From the NCBI RefSeq assembly GCF_014695915.1, contig NZ_JACJPF010000031.1, forward strand, positions 1-64,000: 64,000 nt of DNA. The letters are read 5' to 3'. The position numbers and the translations under genes are program-made. The notes beneath the pieces are model-generated. The model did no database searches, was not told the DNA's origin, and was given only the letters and a program-made list of their open reading frames with translations. The DNA comes from Trichocoleus sp. FACHB-40 (lineage in GTDB: Bacteria > Cyanobacteriota > Cyanobacteriia > Cyanobacteriales > FACHB-T130). Positions within the stretch are counted from its first letter, which is position 1. Each line of letters starts with the position of its first letter. Shown piece after piece: positions 11,896-23,060 of this stretch.

Positions 11896-12924
11896 ATGCC
11901 TACTACCAATTGGACTCGTCACCACATTCTTTCCTTGGCAGATTTCACGCCAGATGAATACGATACTGTGTTGCAAACTGCTGCCAGTTTTCAAGAGGTG
12001 CTTTCGCGACGCACGAAGAAAGTACCAACGCTACAAGGTCAGGTAGTCGCTAATTTGTTTTTTGAATCTTCTACCCGTACTCGCAGTAGTTTCGAACTGG
12101 CAGCAAAGCGCCTCTCTGCTGATACGCTGAATTTTGCAGCAGCAACGTCTTCTTTGACGAAGGGCGAGACAATTCTGGATACGGCAAAAACCTATCTGGC
12201 AATGGGTGCGGATATGATGGTGATTCGCCATCGGGAGGCGGGAGTGCCGCAAGCGATCGCCTTGGAAATGGATCGTTTGCGATCGCGGGTAGGTGTCCTC
12301 AATGCTGGTGATGGTCAGCACGAACACCCTTCCCAAGCACTCTTAGACTTGTTTACAATCTGCACTCTTTTAGACCCAGACCACCCGCGACTCGAACTCC
12401 TCAAAGACAAAAAAATTGTCATTGTCGGCGATATTCTCCACTCGCGGGTAGCCAGATCGAATATCTGGAGTTTGACAGCGACAGGCGCAGAGGTTCATCT
12501 AGCTGGGCCACCCACTCTTTTACCCCAGCTTTTTGCCGCCTACGGTAGCGAGATTCAGGGAGAGGAAACTCCCCAATCCCCAATCCCCAATCCCCAAAGA
12601 AAGCTATTTCTCCACTGGGATTTAGAACCAGCTTTACAAAATGCCGATTTTGTGATGACGTTGCGGCTGCAAAAGGAACGTATGACTCAGCATTTGCTGC
12701 CCAGTCTGCGAGAATACCATCAACGGTATGGGATAACACGCGATCGCCTGAAACTCTGCAAACAGGACGTTAAAGTGCTGCATCCAGGGCCAGTTAATCG
12801 TGGCGTGGAAATTAGTTCTGACCTGATGGACGACCCCCAGTTCAGTTTAATCTCCCAGCAGGTGACGAGCGGCGTTGCCGTTCGCATGGCACTACTGTAC
12901 CTGATGGGCAGCGGCAAATCTTAA
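11896..12924 (+). CDS. pyrB: Aspartate carbamoyltransferase catalytic chain
   Basis: A 342-residue enzyme joining carbamoyl phosphate to aspartate in pyrimidine synthesis. The carbamoyl phosphate site [13 protein letters not shown] (about residues 55-67), [15 protein letters not shown], the aspartate-binding [10 protein letters not shown] and the C-terminal [12 protein letters not shown] motif are intact. The length is a little above the usual 310-335 because of an in-frame insertion of CCCCAAT repeats at 12571-12597, which adds a [10 protein letters not shown] peptide in the aspartate domain. The insertion precedes the MTLRLQ loop and probably forms a surface loop. No regulatory chain gene is adjacent. 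Confidence 0.95.
12571..12597 (+). repeat. CCCCAAT heptamer repeat inside pyrB
   Basis: Three perfect CCCCAAT units plus a fourth partial one lie in the pyrB reading frame. They encode a proline-rich PQSPIPNPQ segment. It is the same repeat type as in the copper ATPase gene and in several intergenic sites of this window. Confidence 0.9.
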
Positions 12925-18804: not shown

Positions 18805-19260
18805 TTGCAAGTAATTTCTCTACTAGATGCAACAGCGACGCGATCGCTGGGTGTAAATCTTGGGCGATCGCTAAGTGCTGGGAGTACGATTTTGCTAGAA
18901 GGAGACTTGGGTGCTGGCAAAACTACTCTTGTTCAAGGCATTGGTGAAGGATTGGGCATTATCGATCCAATTGTTAGTCCCACCTTCACCTTAATTAACG
19001 AGTATCGGGAAGGACGCATTCCTCTGTATCACCTTGACTTATACCGCTTAGAACCTACCGAAGTGACAGTGTTAAACTTGGAAACTTATTGGGAAGGCAT
19101 TGAAGTCCCTTTGGGAATTGTCGCCATTGAATGGGCGGAACGTTTGCAGTATAAACCATTAAACTTCTTGAGCATCCACTTAACTTATTCCGCTGATAAC
19201 GGCCGCCAAGCTGAACTTGTCCCAGCAGGTGCATTTAATTTTGGGTCATTAAAGATTTAA
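18805..19260 (+). CDS. tsaE: tRNA threonylcarbamoyladenosine biosynthesis ATPase TsaE
   Basis: A 151-residue ATPase that works with TsaB and TsaD to make the t6A modification of tRNAs reading ANN codons. The P-loop GDLGAGKTT (33-41) and the following VQGIGEGLGI, SPTFTLINEY, HLDLYRLE and IEWAERL motifs are typical. The start is TTG, three bases after the YvcK stop codon, with a GGA just upstream; no ATG exists in the right place. Tight spacing implies co-translation with the upstream gene. Its stop codon lies inside the terminator stem. Confidence 0.93.
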   Translation: MQVISLLDATATRSLGVNLGRSLSAGSTILLEGDLGAGKTTLVQGIGEGLGIIDPIVSPTFTLINEYREGRIPLYHLDLYRLEPTEVTVLNLETYWEGIEVPLGIVAIEWAERLQYKPLNFLSIHLTYSADNGRQAELVPAGAFNFGSLKI

Positions 19261-19451: not shown

Positions 19452-20778
19452 TTAGCAAAAAGATAAAGCTTGACCGCGGACTTCTGTATTAAGTTTTCCT
19501 CGGTCGTAAACAACCTGACCGCCGACAATAGTCACAACAGTCCATCCAGTGAGGTTCCAGCCTTCAAAGGGACTCCAACCACATTTAGTAAGTAAGTCCA
19601 CGCGCAAAACAGGGCGGTAATTGTTCAAATCAACAAGGATTAAATCGGCATCATAACCAGGAGCGATCGCGCTTTTTTTTGGAATATTATAAGCTTGGGC
19701 TACAGCCGCAGACATCCAGTTAGAAACTTGGGCAACACTACAACGTCCCTGCATAGCAGAAGTTAACATCAGCGGTAGAGATGTTTCAACACCTGGCATT
19801 CCCGAAGGAGTATTGGGGTAGACTTGAGCTTTTTCTTCCAAAGTGTGGGGAGCATGATCGGTAGCGATAAAATCAATTACACCATCGAGAAGAGCTTGCC
19901 AGCGAACTTCGTTGTCATGAAGCGATCGCAAAGGCGGATTCATCTGCGCCAGCGTACCAATTTTTTCATAAGCGCTAGTGTTTAGCAGCAAATGTTGCGG
20001 CGTTACTTCCGCAGTCACCCAACTCGGTTTATCCTGACGCAGTAACTGGGCTTCCTCATCTGTGGACATATGCAAAATATGTAACCGTCGCTGGTATTTT
20101 TTAGAAAGATTTAACGATAGTTGAGTAGCATTAAGGGCAGCTTGATTATCCTCAATTTGGGAATGAATTGCCGGATCGTTGATCCCGGCAAATTCCTGAC
20201 GACGTTAATTAATTCGGGCTTAATCTTCAGCGTGAACCGCAATTAAGCGATCGCCTTGTGCAAAAATGGACTCCAGCGCCGTATCCTGATCTACCAACAA
20301 CTGACCGTGCATCGATCCCATAAAAATTTTAATTCCAGCAGTCGGATGCGCCTCTATAAATATCCGGCAAAATTTCCGCCGTTGCCCCAATAAAAAAGCC
20401 ATAATTAACTAAGCACTTTTCTTTCGCCCGCAGCAGCTTGTCATCCAAAGCCGCCTGCGTAGTTGTCAGAGGGCGAGTATTAGGCATCTCCAGAAACGAC
20501 GTTATCCCTCCCTTGGCACAAGCGCAACTCGCAGTAAACAAGTCTTCTTTGTGTTCCAACCCTGGTTCTCGGAAGTGTACCTGCGGATCAATAACTCCCG
20601 GCAACAAAGTCAGACCCGAACCGTCTATTTCTTTACCAGAGTCATCTTTTGGGATTTCTGACGTAACCTGGACAATTTCCCCGCCACGAGTTTCGACATC
20701 CCCAATGAAAAACTCACCATTGGGCAGAAGAATATTAGCGTTGCGGATAAACAGAGAAGAAGCAGAGGAGCATAGCAA
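19452..20778 (-). pseudogene. pyrC: Dihydroorotase pseudogene, one frameshift and two nonsense codons
   Basis: Joined across lesions this would be about 440 residues of a dihydroorotase, the enzyme closing carbamoyl aspartate into dihydroorotate. The first frame (from 20778) has PGVIDPQVHFREPG, then NYGFFIGATAEILPDI. Near 20355 one extra T (coding strand) shifts the frame; the sequence resumes as EAHPTAGIKIFMGS in the second frame. That frame has TAA at 20220-20222 and again at 20205-20207. Between and beyond them the family sequence continues (VHAED, ARIN, RRQEFAG), and I infer that both stops were CAA glutamine codons. The rest is intact to 19452, with RLHILHMST, VTAEVTPQHLLL and IATDHAPHT. 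Decay looks recent. The alternative is assembly or base-call error. Confidence 0.88.
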
Positions 20779-21029: not shown

Positions 21030-21626
21030 ATGACTGACGTGCAGAATCAAGAACCAGACAGCAAAACCCAACAACAAGTTGAAAATCCCTTTATAGAGGG
21101 AATTAAAACGATTGGGCTTAGCGCCATTTTAGCCTTTGGAATTCGCTCTTTTGTAGCGGAAGCACGCTACATCCCTTCGGGATCGATGCTACCAACGCTA
21201 CAAATCAATGACCGTCTGATTATAGACAAGGTTAGTTACAAGTTTACCTCTCCAGAACGGGGAGACATTGTAGTATTTAATCCCACCGAAGCCTTAGAAA
21301 AGCAAAATTTCCACGATGCCTTCATTAAGCGGGTGATTGGTATACCGGGAGACAAGGTAGAGGTGAAAGGGGGGCGGGTTTATGTCAACGATCAAGCCTT
21401 GCGGGAAAAATATATCGACGAACAGCCTAATTACCGCTATGGCCCAGTGACGGTGCCACCTAACGCTTATTTGGTACTTGGTGATAATCGCAACAACAGC
21501 TACGATAGCCATTACTGGGGTTTTGTCCCCCGCGACAAGATAATTGGTCGGGCGATAGTACGTTTCTGGCCTTTGAATCGCGCCGGAGAAGTGGATCAGT
21601 CTCCAGTTGATTCCTCAGATAAGTGA
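21030..21626 (+). CDS. lepB: Signal peptidase I
   Basis: A 198-residue membrane-anchored protease that removes signal peptides from exported proteins. One membrane helix (about 23-43) follows a cytoplasmic polar N-terminus. The Ser-Lys dyad is clear: S52 in PSGSM and K100 in [25 protein letters not shown] and [10 protein letters not shown] complete the family boxes. The single anchor and short length are usual for cyanobacterial and plastid-type LepB enzymes, which include thylakoid forms. The gene stands alone between two minus-strand dihydroorotase-like loci. Confidence 0.96.
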
Positions 21627-21797: not shown

Positions 21798-23060
21798 TTA
21801 GCCGGGACTCCAATTTTGGACGACGCGGCCCTGTAACTGTTGACCTAGCCAGGGAGTGTTGAGTGAGAGGGATTTGAGGTTTTGTCTCTCGACTGTCCAA
21901 GTTAGTTGGGGGTCAAATAAAATAATTTCAGCGAGTTGACCAGCTGCGATCGCAGCTGGTTTTTGTTGTAAACACTGGGCGGGACGGGTACTCAAAACCC
22001 GCCACAGTTCCAAAGAACTCCAGTCGCCATTCTCAACCAGGGTGTGCCAAAGTAGCGGCAAAGCTAACTCTAAACCAATCGCGCCCGGTGGTGCTTCAGC
22101 GAAGGCGACGGTTTTTTCTTCGTAAGTATAGGGAGTGTGGTCAATAGCGATCGCATCAAGTACCCCACTCCGCACACCCTCAATTAATGCTGCTTGGTCA
22201 GATGGGTTCCCCAGAGGCGGTTCCAGGCGTAAAGAAGGATCGTAACTCCCCACATCCTCAGCATTTAGCAGCAAGTGCATCCAAGTGGTACTCGCCGTTA
22301 TTGGCAAACCCCGCGCCTTAGCATCCTGAATTAGCTTAACGCTGCGGCCGGTAGAAACGCGCATGATGTGGACTTTCGTGCCAGTGGATTCTACCACTTC
22401 CAACAAAGCAGCCAGAGCAGATGTTTCCGCGATCGCGGGATTTCCTGGCAAACCAAAACGAATTGAAGCCGCACCTTCTCGCATCACCCCATTGGTAGAA
22501 AGATGGCGATCGCAAGCCCACAAAGCCACTGGTTTTCCTAGAGGCTGAAGATATTCCAAAATTCTTCGCAGCAGCGCCAAATTCGATATCGGCTTACCAT
22601 CAGCAAAACCCACCACCCCAGCCGCTGCAAGTTCTGCCAACTCTGTCATTTGCTGGCCTTGCACGCCCAAAGTTAAAGCACCCCAAAATCCAATTTTGGA
22701 TTTTGGATTTCGGATTGTGGATTGTTGAAGATAGGATAAACCAGCTGGGTTGTCCATAGCTGGCAAGGTATCCGGCAAAATTGTCAACCGGGTAAAGCCT
22801 CCAGCCGCCCCTGCGGAAACAAGCGTTACTAAGGTTTCCCGTTCTTCAAACCCAGGTTCACCGGAGTGGCTGTATAAATCCACGAGTCCTGGCCCTAGCA
22901 CCAATCCACGACAATCCCGCACCGATGTTTCTGCGGGATTTGCAGAAATTTCAGTTTCGACTGCTTTTATATAACCATCAGCAATCAAAACGTCGGCAAT
23001 CTGGTCAGTTCCAGAAACAGGATCTATTACCCTTACTTGTTGAAGTAGTTCACTATTCAT
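21798..23060 (-). CDS. Dihydroorotase-like amidohydrolase with degenerate metal site
   Basis: A 420-residue member of the dihydroorotase/hydantoinase family. The fold is recognisable from GLVLGPGLVDLYSHSGEPG (about 52-70), IAIDHTPYTYEEK and AEIILFDP near the end. The metal ligands expected of an active type I dihydroorotase are altered: the HxH motif reads YSH, the HILH-type motif reads HIMR, and the PHH/PQH segment reads WMH. Such degenerate paralogues in other bacteria can be non-catalytic partners of aspartate carbamoyltransferase, which is a possible role here. In-frame insertion of TTTTGGA-type repeats adds IRNPKSKIGF at about residue 116. It lies close to the broken canonical copy at 19452. 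Confidence 0.8.
   Translation of the reverse strand: MNSELLQQVRVIDPVSGTDQIADVLIADGYIKAVETEISANPAETSVRDCRGLVLGPGLVDLYSHSGEPGFEERETLVTLVSAGAAGGFTRLTILPDTLPAMDNPAGLSYLQQSTIRNPKSKIGFWGALTLGVQGQQMTELAELAAAGVVGFADGKPISNLALLRRILEYLQPLGKPVALWACDRHLSTNGVMREGAASIRFGLPGNPAIAETSALAALLEVVESTGTKVHIMRVSTGRSVKLIQDAKARGLPITASTTWMHLLLNAEDVGSYDPSLRLEPPLGNPSDQAALIEGVRSGVLDAIAIDHTPYTYEEKTVAFAEAPPGAIGLELALPLLWHTLVENGDWSSLELWRVLSTRPAQCLQQKPAAIAAGQLAEIILFDPQLTWTVERQNLKSLSLNTPWLGQQLQGRVVQNWSPG
22693..22724 (-). repeat. ATCCAAA heptamer repeats inside the dihydroorotase-like gene
   Basis: Four or five degenerate TTTTGGA/TTTCGGA/TTGTGGA units lie within the coding frame and encode an IRNPKSKIG-like peptide. The same ATCCAAA unit occurs between genes at 57874-57900. 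Confidence 0.75.

Follow-up and report, generated by a model that had tools for sequence, protein, structure and literature searches.

The broken type-I dihydroorotase gene of Trichocoleus sp. FACHB-40 is very probably an ancestral gene that was made dispensable by an incoming type-II PyrC, which this genome encodes on a separate contig. The broken copy lies in the window, as the 64,000-nucleotide stretch of DNA analysed here is called, which forms part of a draft genome of 126 contigs (G000). Its remains show full-length homology to the NF005751 family: the two matching frames are 77% and 82% identical to the intact protein of G002, a relative from the same family that served as the reference for coverage, and one piece alone reaches 548.9 bits on NF005751, above the cut-off of 529. 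In G002, an intact type-I gene is found at the matching place and, as in the window, adjoins PyrX, the name used here for the NF005614/PRK07369 dihydroorotase-like paralogue (Table 1). According to the proposed course of events, the type-II gene would have arrived on a mobile segment, presumably before the decay of type I began; both dihydroorotases would then have coexisted, two enzymes for one step, until selection on the older gene lapsed and it accumulated lesions without leaving its ancestral location next to PyrX, the arrangement that is also seen in G002. A broken core gene can thus signal a displacement.

Table 1. Genes and lesions in the window, with the basis for each assignment
Feature	Position	Strand	Basis
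pyrB, aspartate carbamoyltransferase, intact	11896..12924	+	Over family cut-offs
tsaE, intact, on the other side of the pseudogene	18805..19260	+	dN/dS 0.04 against G040
Type-I dihydroorotase pseudogene (NF005751/PRK07575)	19452..20778	-	Family matches in two frames with stops; 437/440 residues covered
In-frame TAA, a glutamine codon in relatives	20205..20207	-	Alignment with G040, G001 and G002
In-frame TAA, a glutamine codon in relatives	20220..20222	-	Alignment with G040, G001 and G002
Frame change of one base compared with G040, G001 and G002	20355..20358 (near 20357)	-	Alignment
ATG at the aligned start position of intact copies, not in frame with the pseudogene body	20771..20773	-	Spacing of 22 against 21 bases
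Signal peptidase I gene, intact, between PyrX and the pseudogene	21030..21626	+	dN/dS 0.03 against G040
PyrX, intact dihydroorotase-like paralogue (NF005614/PRK07369)	21798..23060	-	681.9 bits, cut-off 456

The type-II gene and its mobility

The first-pass annotation, made from the letters of the window, had noted an intact pyrB nearby, as is indeed the case, and had left three explanations for the broken copy: another enzyme does the job, the lesions are read around, or they are errors. Its proposal to search the rest of the genome for another pyrC proved fruitful, since an intact, E. coli-like type-II PyrC (TIGR00856) is encoded at C19:20083-21099, with 525.2 bits against a cut-off of 292.95. 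The first explanation therefore fits, while read-around is unlikely and errors are rejected on evidence given below. The C19 protein aligns over its length with solved dihydroorotases (1j79, 4lfy) and reaches 42 bits with TIGR00857, a type-I model. Inspection by eye of the alignment to 4lfy finds the metal-ligand motifs present, the ligand list being that given in PMC2770081 and its mapping onto the type-II motifs being in part assumed. From these matches we infer that the C19 protein supplies the dihydroorotase activity of the cell. It is like E. coli PyrC in its full-length match and its ligand motifs, but the cyanobacterial type-II gene is apparently acquired and mobile. A role as a zinc-limitation paralogue, as described for Pseudomonas in PMC2770081, is unsupported, as no zinc-limitation neighbours were noticed beside the type-II genes looked at (C19 and three Nostoc plasmids).

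Contig C19 is 29.6 kb long and includes ParA-like, integrase-family and DDE-family genes. The stretch G000:C19:12000-29000 also has KatG-like, cupin, SOUL and DJ-1/PfpI genes, some of which are near-unchanged in other genera or families; the KatG label is our assumption for a gene whose protein matches PF00141. For instance, the cupin gene shows a dS of 0.18 and 0.21 to G023 and G051, which belong to other families, and the SOUL gene a dS of 0.15 to G003, which belongs to another genus of the same family. Between G000 and G040, a second genome labelled as the same species and assembled independently, dS is 0.26 for type II, 0.10 for PyrX and 0.03-0.08 for a block of five type-II neighbours, so that type II itself must either have been exchanged or have come in separately.

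Plasmids or other mobile segments apparently carry the type-II gene from one cyanobacterial family to another. Across ten genomes from five families, type-II proteins share 94.4-97.7% identity irrespective of how distant the hosts are; for the PyrX proteins of these ten genomes, identity between genera is 62-80%. In 43 of 45 pairs, type II is the more similar of the two; the two pairs in which protein identity is reversed (G000-G040 and G003-G004), counted here against the displacement, are both close ones. Likewise, type-II dS ranges from 0.20 to 0.65 among the ten genomes, and PyrX dS is about 1 between the two genera of family f1 and, from family to family, 1.98 to saturated. The type-II gene, annotated as pyrC, is carried at 88.5-88.8% identity by three plasmids of Nostoc that measure 271-447 kb, one typed as conjugative and two as non-mobilizable, and plasmids would be the vehicle. 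Counted against the plasmid route is the location of type II on contigs of 5.3-8.5 Mb, i.e. chromosomes, in G051, G117, G253 and G295; in G247 it lies on a 58.9-kb contig that is partly N. A search for phage returned four records, none of them named cyanobacterial.

Outside the cyanobacteria, the nearest relatives among the best 80 loci listed are mostly betaproteobacterial, and the non-cyanobacterial identities among these loci are 80% and 75% in two MAG records and about 65-70% in the others. A quick, midpoint-rooted tree of type II, which included 21 of 63 non-cyanobacterial rows and in which 39 of 89 inner branches are open, places 67 cyanobacterial rows together (aLRT 98), with the type II of the window's genome in a 12-row clade (aLRT 99) that spans six families. 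Four rows of genus g22 (family f19) stand apart with a far more divergent type II (331-350 bits on TIGR00856), apparently a separate acquisition. Under this midpoint rooting, the pattern suggests a source in the betaproteobacteria, dissemination among the cyanobacteria and one or more further acquisitions. One MAG labelled Rhodocyclaceae (JADCJC010000001.1) encodes a type-II PyrC with 80% identity that branches just outside the cyanobacterial group; it is either a relative of the donor or a question of binning. As for why type II would prevail, a self-sufficient enzyme may be simpler to transfer than one that depends on partners. It is doubtful that mobile type-II pyrC behaves as self-entrenching cargo which, by providing an essential step, allows the host gene to decay until the host cannot lose the carrier element; if it did, a plasmid would become indispensable with no toxin-antitoxin system involved.

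Distribution of the two forms across the order

Dihydroorotases of types I and II have been described before (PMC12524618), and within this cyanobacterial order the two forms are distributed in a complementary, near-exclusive manner. Among 292 genomes, each at least 95% complete, 68 have type II over the cut-off together with a weak type I, 212 have a strong type I without type II, four have both forms by score and eight have a weak type I without type II over the cut-off. The corresponding Fisher p of 4.5e-52 is not a true probability, since the 292 genomes are related and not independent. Here, weak denotes a best NF005751 E-value above 1e-200, a line drawn after seeing the listing, and strong is likewise defined by score, the 212 including one genome (G068) whose type I has two in-frame stops; the 216 strong copies and six broken copies over the cut-off give a type-I tally of 222. 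Genomes with type II over the cut-off come from 15 families and 30 genera; in an earlier sample of relatives they had made up 13 of 40.

When type I was examined in 21 type-II genomes, hand-picked and thus non-random, from a total of 73 (72 over the cut-off plus G118, where type II lies in two frames), it was broken or fragmentary in 19, with a single apparent frameshift at one extreme (G152) and short pieces at the other (G004, G051, G161). In two of the four genomes with both forms by score (G084 and G152), type I is split across frames. The other two, G047 and G295, represent the transitional state, with type I in one piece and without stops next to type II, and are the two of the 21 in which it is whole. 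Type-I-only and type-II genomes occur side by side in seven genera (g11, g15, g34, g50, g90, g111, g114), and the presence of type II changes at least six times on a quick PyrX tree of 35 genomes, where "I" simply denotes the absence of type II and also covers G010, G068, G233, G242 and G244. The simplest reading is that the switch occurred repeatedly and separately in several cyanobacterial lineages.

Non-orthologous gene displacement is a known process, exemplified by the phosphoglycerate mutases dPGM and iPGM, for which PMC2964296 leaves open whether genomes with both forms represent early displacement. The dihydroorotase case resembles that one (PMC2964296) in that an essential enzyme has two forms with a patchy, complementary distribution, some genomes having both, shaped by transfer and loss. 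It differs in two respects: types I and II are distant relatives within one superfamily, so that this is replacement by a distant homologue, and many stages of decay survive in place. The swap of an essential gene is usually inferred after the event, whereas this single order displays both genes whole, one frameshift, several lesions, fragments and no recognisable copy. The case is therefore of more than usual interest, because intermediate stages survive, and these provide natural replicates for timing and testing displacement. No account of a dihydroorotase switch in cyanobacteria was found among the papers listed from the open-access literature, to which the search was mostly confined; the process is thus known, and the cyanobacterial case appears undescribed in the literature searched.

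Some genomes do not follow this pattern. A full-length type I with two in-frame stops is present in G068 (C12:53118-54434), where no type II was found, although its genus mates G023 and G084 have it; in G197, type I is likewise broken and type II was not found, and neither form was found in G010, G154, G233, G242, G244 and G281. An intact copy of either form was therefore not found in eight genomes, and it must be stressed that decay or loss of type I without a visible type II does happen, which is counted against displacement. An amidohydrolase search of six of these eight and other exceptional genomes returned unassigned matches, and unassembled plasmids, another enzyme or PyrX could lie behind such genomes. 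The broken copies in G068 and G197 also lend something to the idea that type I decayed for another reason, for instance pyrimidine uptake, with type II merely present. This is nevertheless very unlikely in view of the near-exclusive distribution and of the seven genera that hold both states.

PyrX and the name dihydroorotase

Three different proteins in the window's genome bear the name dihydroorotase, and a dihydropyrimidinase-family gene is present as well on contig C125 (563 bits, cut-off 393). It is highly improbable that PyrX is the one that supplies the activity, type II being incidental. In favour of PyrX, the gene is intact in the window, the type-I query matches PyrX in G010, G233, G242 and G244, and PMC2770081 reports activity for a PyrC paralogue of Pseudomonas that lacks the usual zinc ligands. 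However, alignments reveal that PyrX has lost metal ligands, namely the first His of HxH and that of HILH. In addition, PyrX is found alongside either dihydroorotase form in many genomes, yet types I and II substitute for each other, and it is not universal, since no PyrX-like match was found in G019 and G029. Finally, there is a precedent for a dihydroorotase that is inactive and nevertheless needed, as the title of a reference in PMC2770081 speaks of an inactive dihydroorotase required for aspartate transcarbamoylase assembly in Pseudomonas putida. The inactive PyrC' of Pseudomonas resembles PyrX in its unconserved zinc ligands (PMC2770081), but PyrX is likened to it from its sequence and binding to PyrB is not implied. 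The type-II PyrC of C19 thus remains the preferred source of the activity.

Another example of the ambiguity of the name is offered by G233 and G242, one-contig genomes of 1.4-1.5 Mb in family f8, in which neither type I nor type II was found and only a PyrX-like protein was (C1:154081-155184 and C1:520251-521267, respectively), with both His residues of HxH lost. These two genomes are probably UCYN-A nitroplast relatives. A PyrC of 1269 bp is listed for UCYN-A in PMC12234771; since this length fits PyrX, that annotation may not mean enzyme activity.

Lesions and selection at the type-I locus

The broken dihydroorotase announced by the first-pass annotation is borne out, both TAA codons and the one-base frame change being present in the sequence. 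The supposition that both stops had been CAA codons agrees with the glutamine read at these positions in G040, G001 and G002, and the +1 shift, which had been put near 20355, is seen in the alignment as one base fewer in the same three genomes near 20357. The list of lesions was incomplete, however, since it lacked the out-of-frame ATG: from the expected start to the first conserved block there are 22 bases in the window and 21 in both G001 and G002, which makes this ATG a probable further lesion of the gene. A TTG at 20778 is in frame with the pseudogene body.

In the alignment with near relatives that had been proposed, G040 is 94% identical to the window over 1.8 kb at this locus. Both stops and the frame change of the window are missing from its copy, which shows damage of its own, namely gaps of 11 bases at the start and of one base in the first third, an in-frame stop near the end and an altered TDHAPHT motif. 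With stop codons excluded, the type-I copies of G000 and G040 differ by a dN of 0.0387 and a dS of 0.0734, i.e. a dN/dS of 0.53, against 0.08 between the intact copies of G001 and G002. Seven flanking genes, some of which we take to be PGM, CPBP and ruvC, show a dN/dS of 0.03-0.14 between G000 and G040 and no gaps. The ratio of nonsynonymous to synonymous changes is 37:21 in type I and 39.5:139.5 in the seven flanking genes (Fisher p 1.3e-8, with counts rounded). The type-I copy thus combines a disrupted frame with relaxed selection, and among the genes compared it is the only one decaying. That the decay is recent, as had been surmised, follows from the comparison of the window's copy with intact relatives, in which dN/dS is still 0.08-0.09.

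These observations also decide on the two remaining explanations. Sequencing or assembly errors in a working gene could be suspected in a draft genome of many contigs, but they are rejected almost with certainty, because an independent assembly of the same species is broken differently and the relaxed selection is absent from the seven neighbours, the nonsynonymous excess being confined to type I among the genes compared; broken copies in 19 type-II genomes also speak against them. It is just as hard to believe that the stops and the frame change are read around to give a working enzyme: HILH and TDHAPHT are retained in the window's copy, but the lesions are not shared with G040, which alters TDHAPHT, selection is relaxed and the ATG is out of frame. 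A gene that is split and still working is ruled out, the C-terminal part of the G040 copy being damaged too.

Finally, one feature of the pseudogene that resembles damage is not damage. The first His of HxH is replaced by Gln in the window's copy, but Gln is also found in intact relatives and in 2gwn, the P. gingivalis-kind type I that is the best solved homologue of an intact relative's protein and that differs from the window's copy in the latter being broken; the change is therefore a trait of the family.
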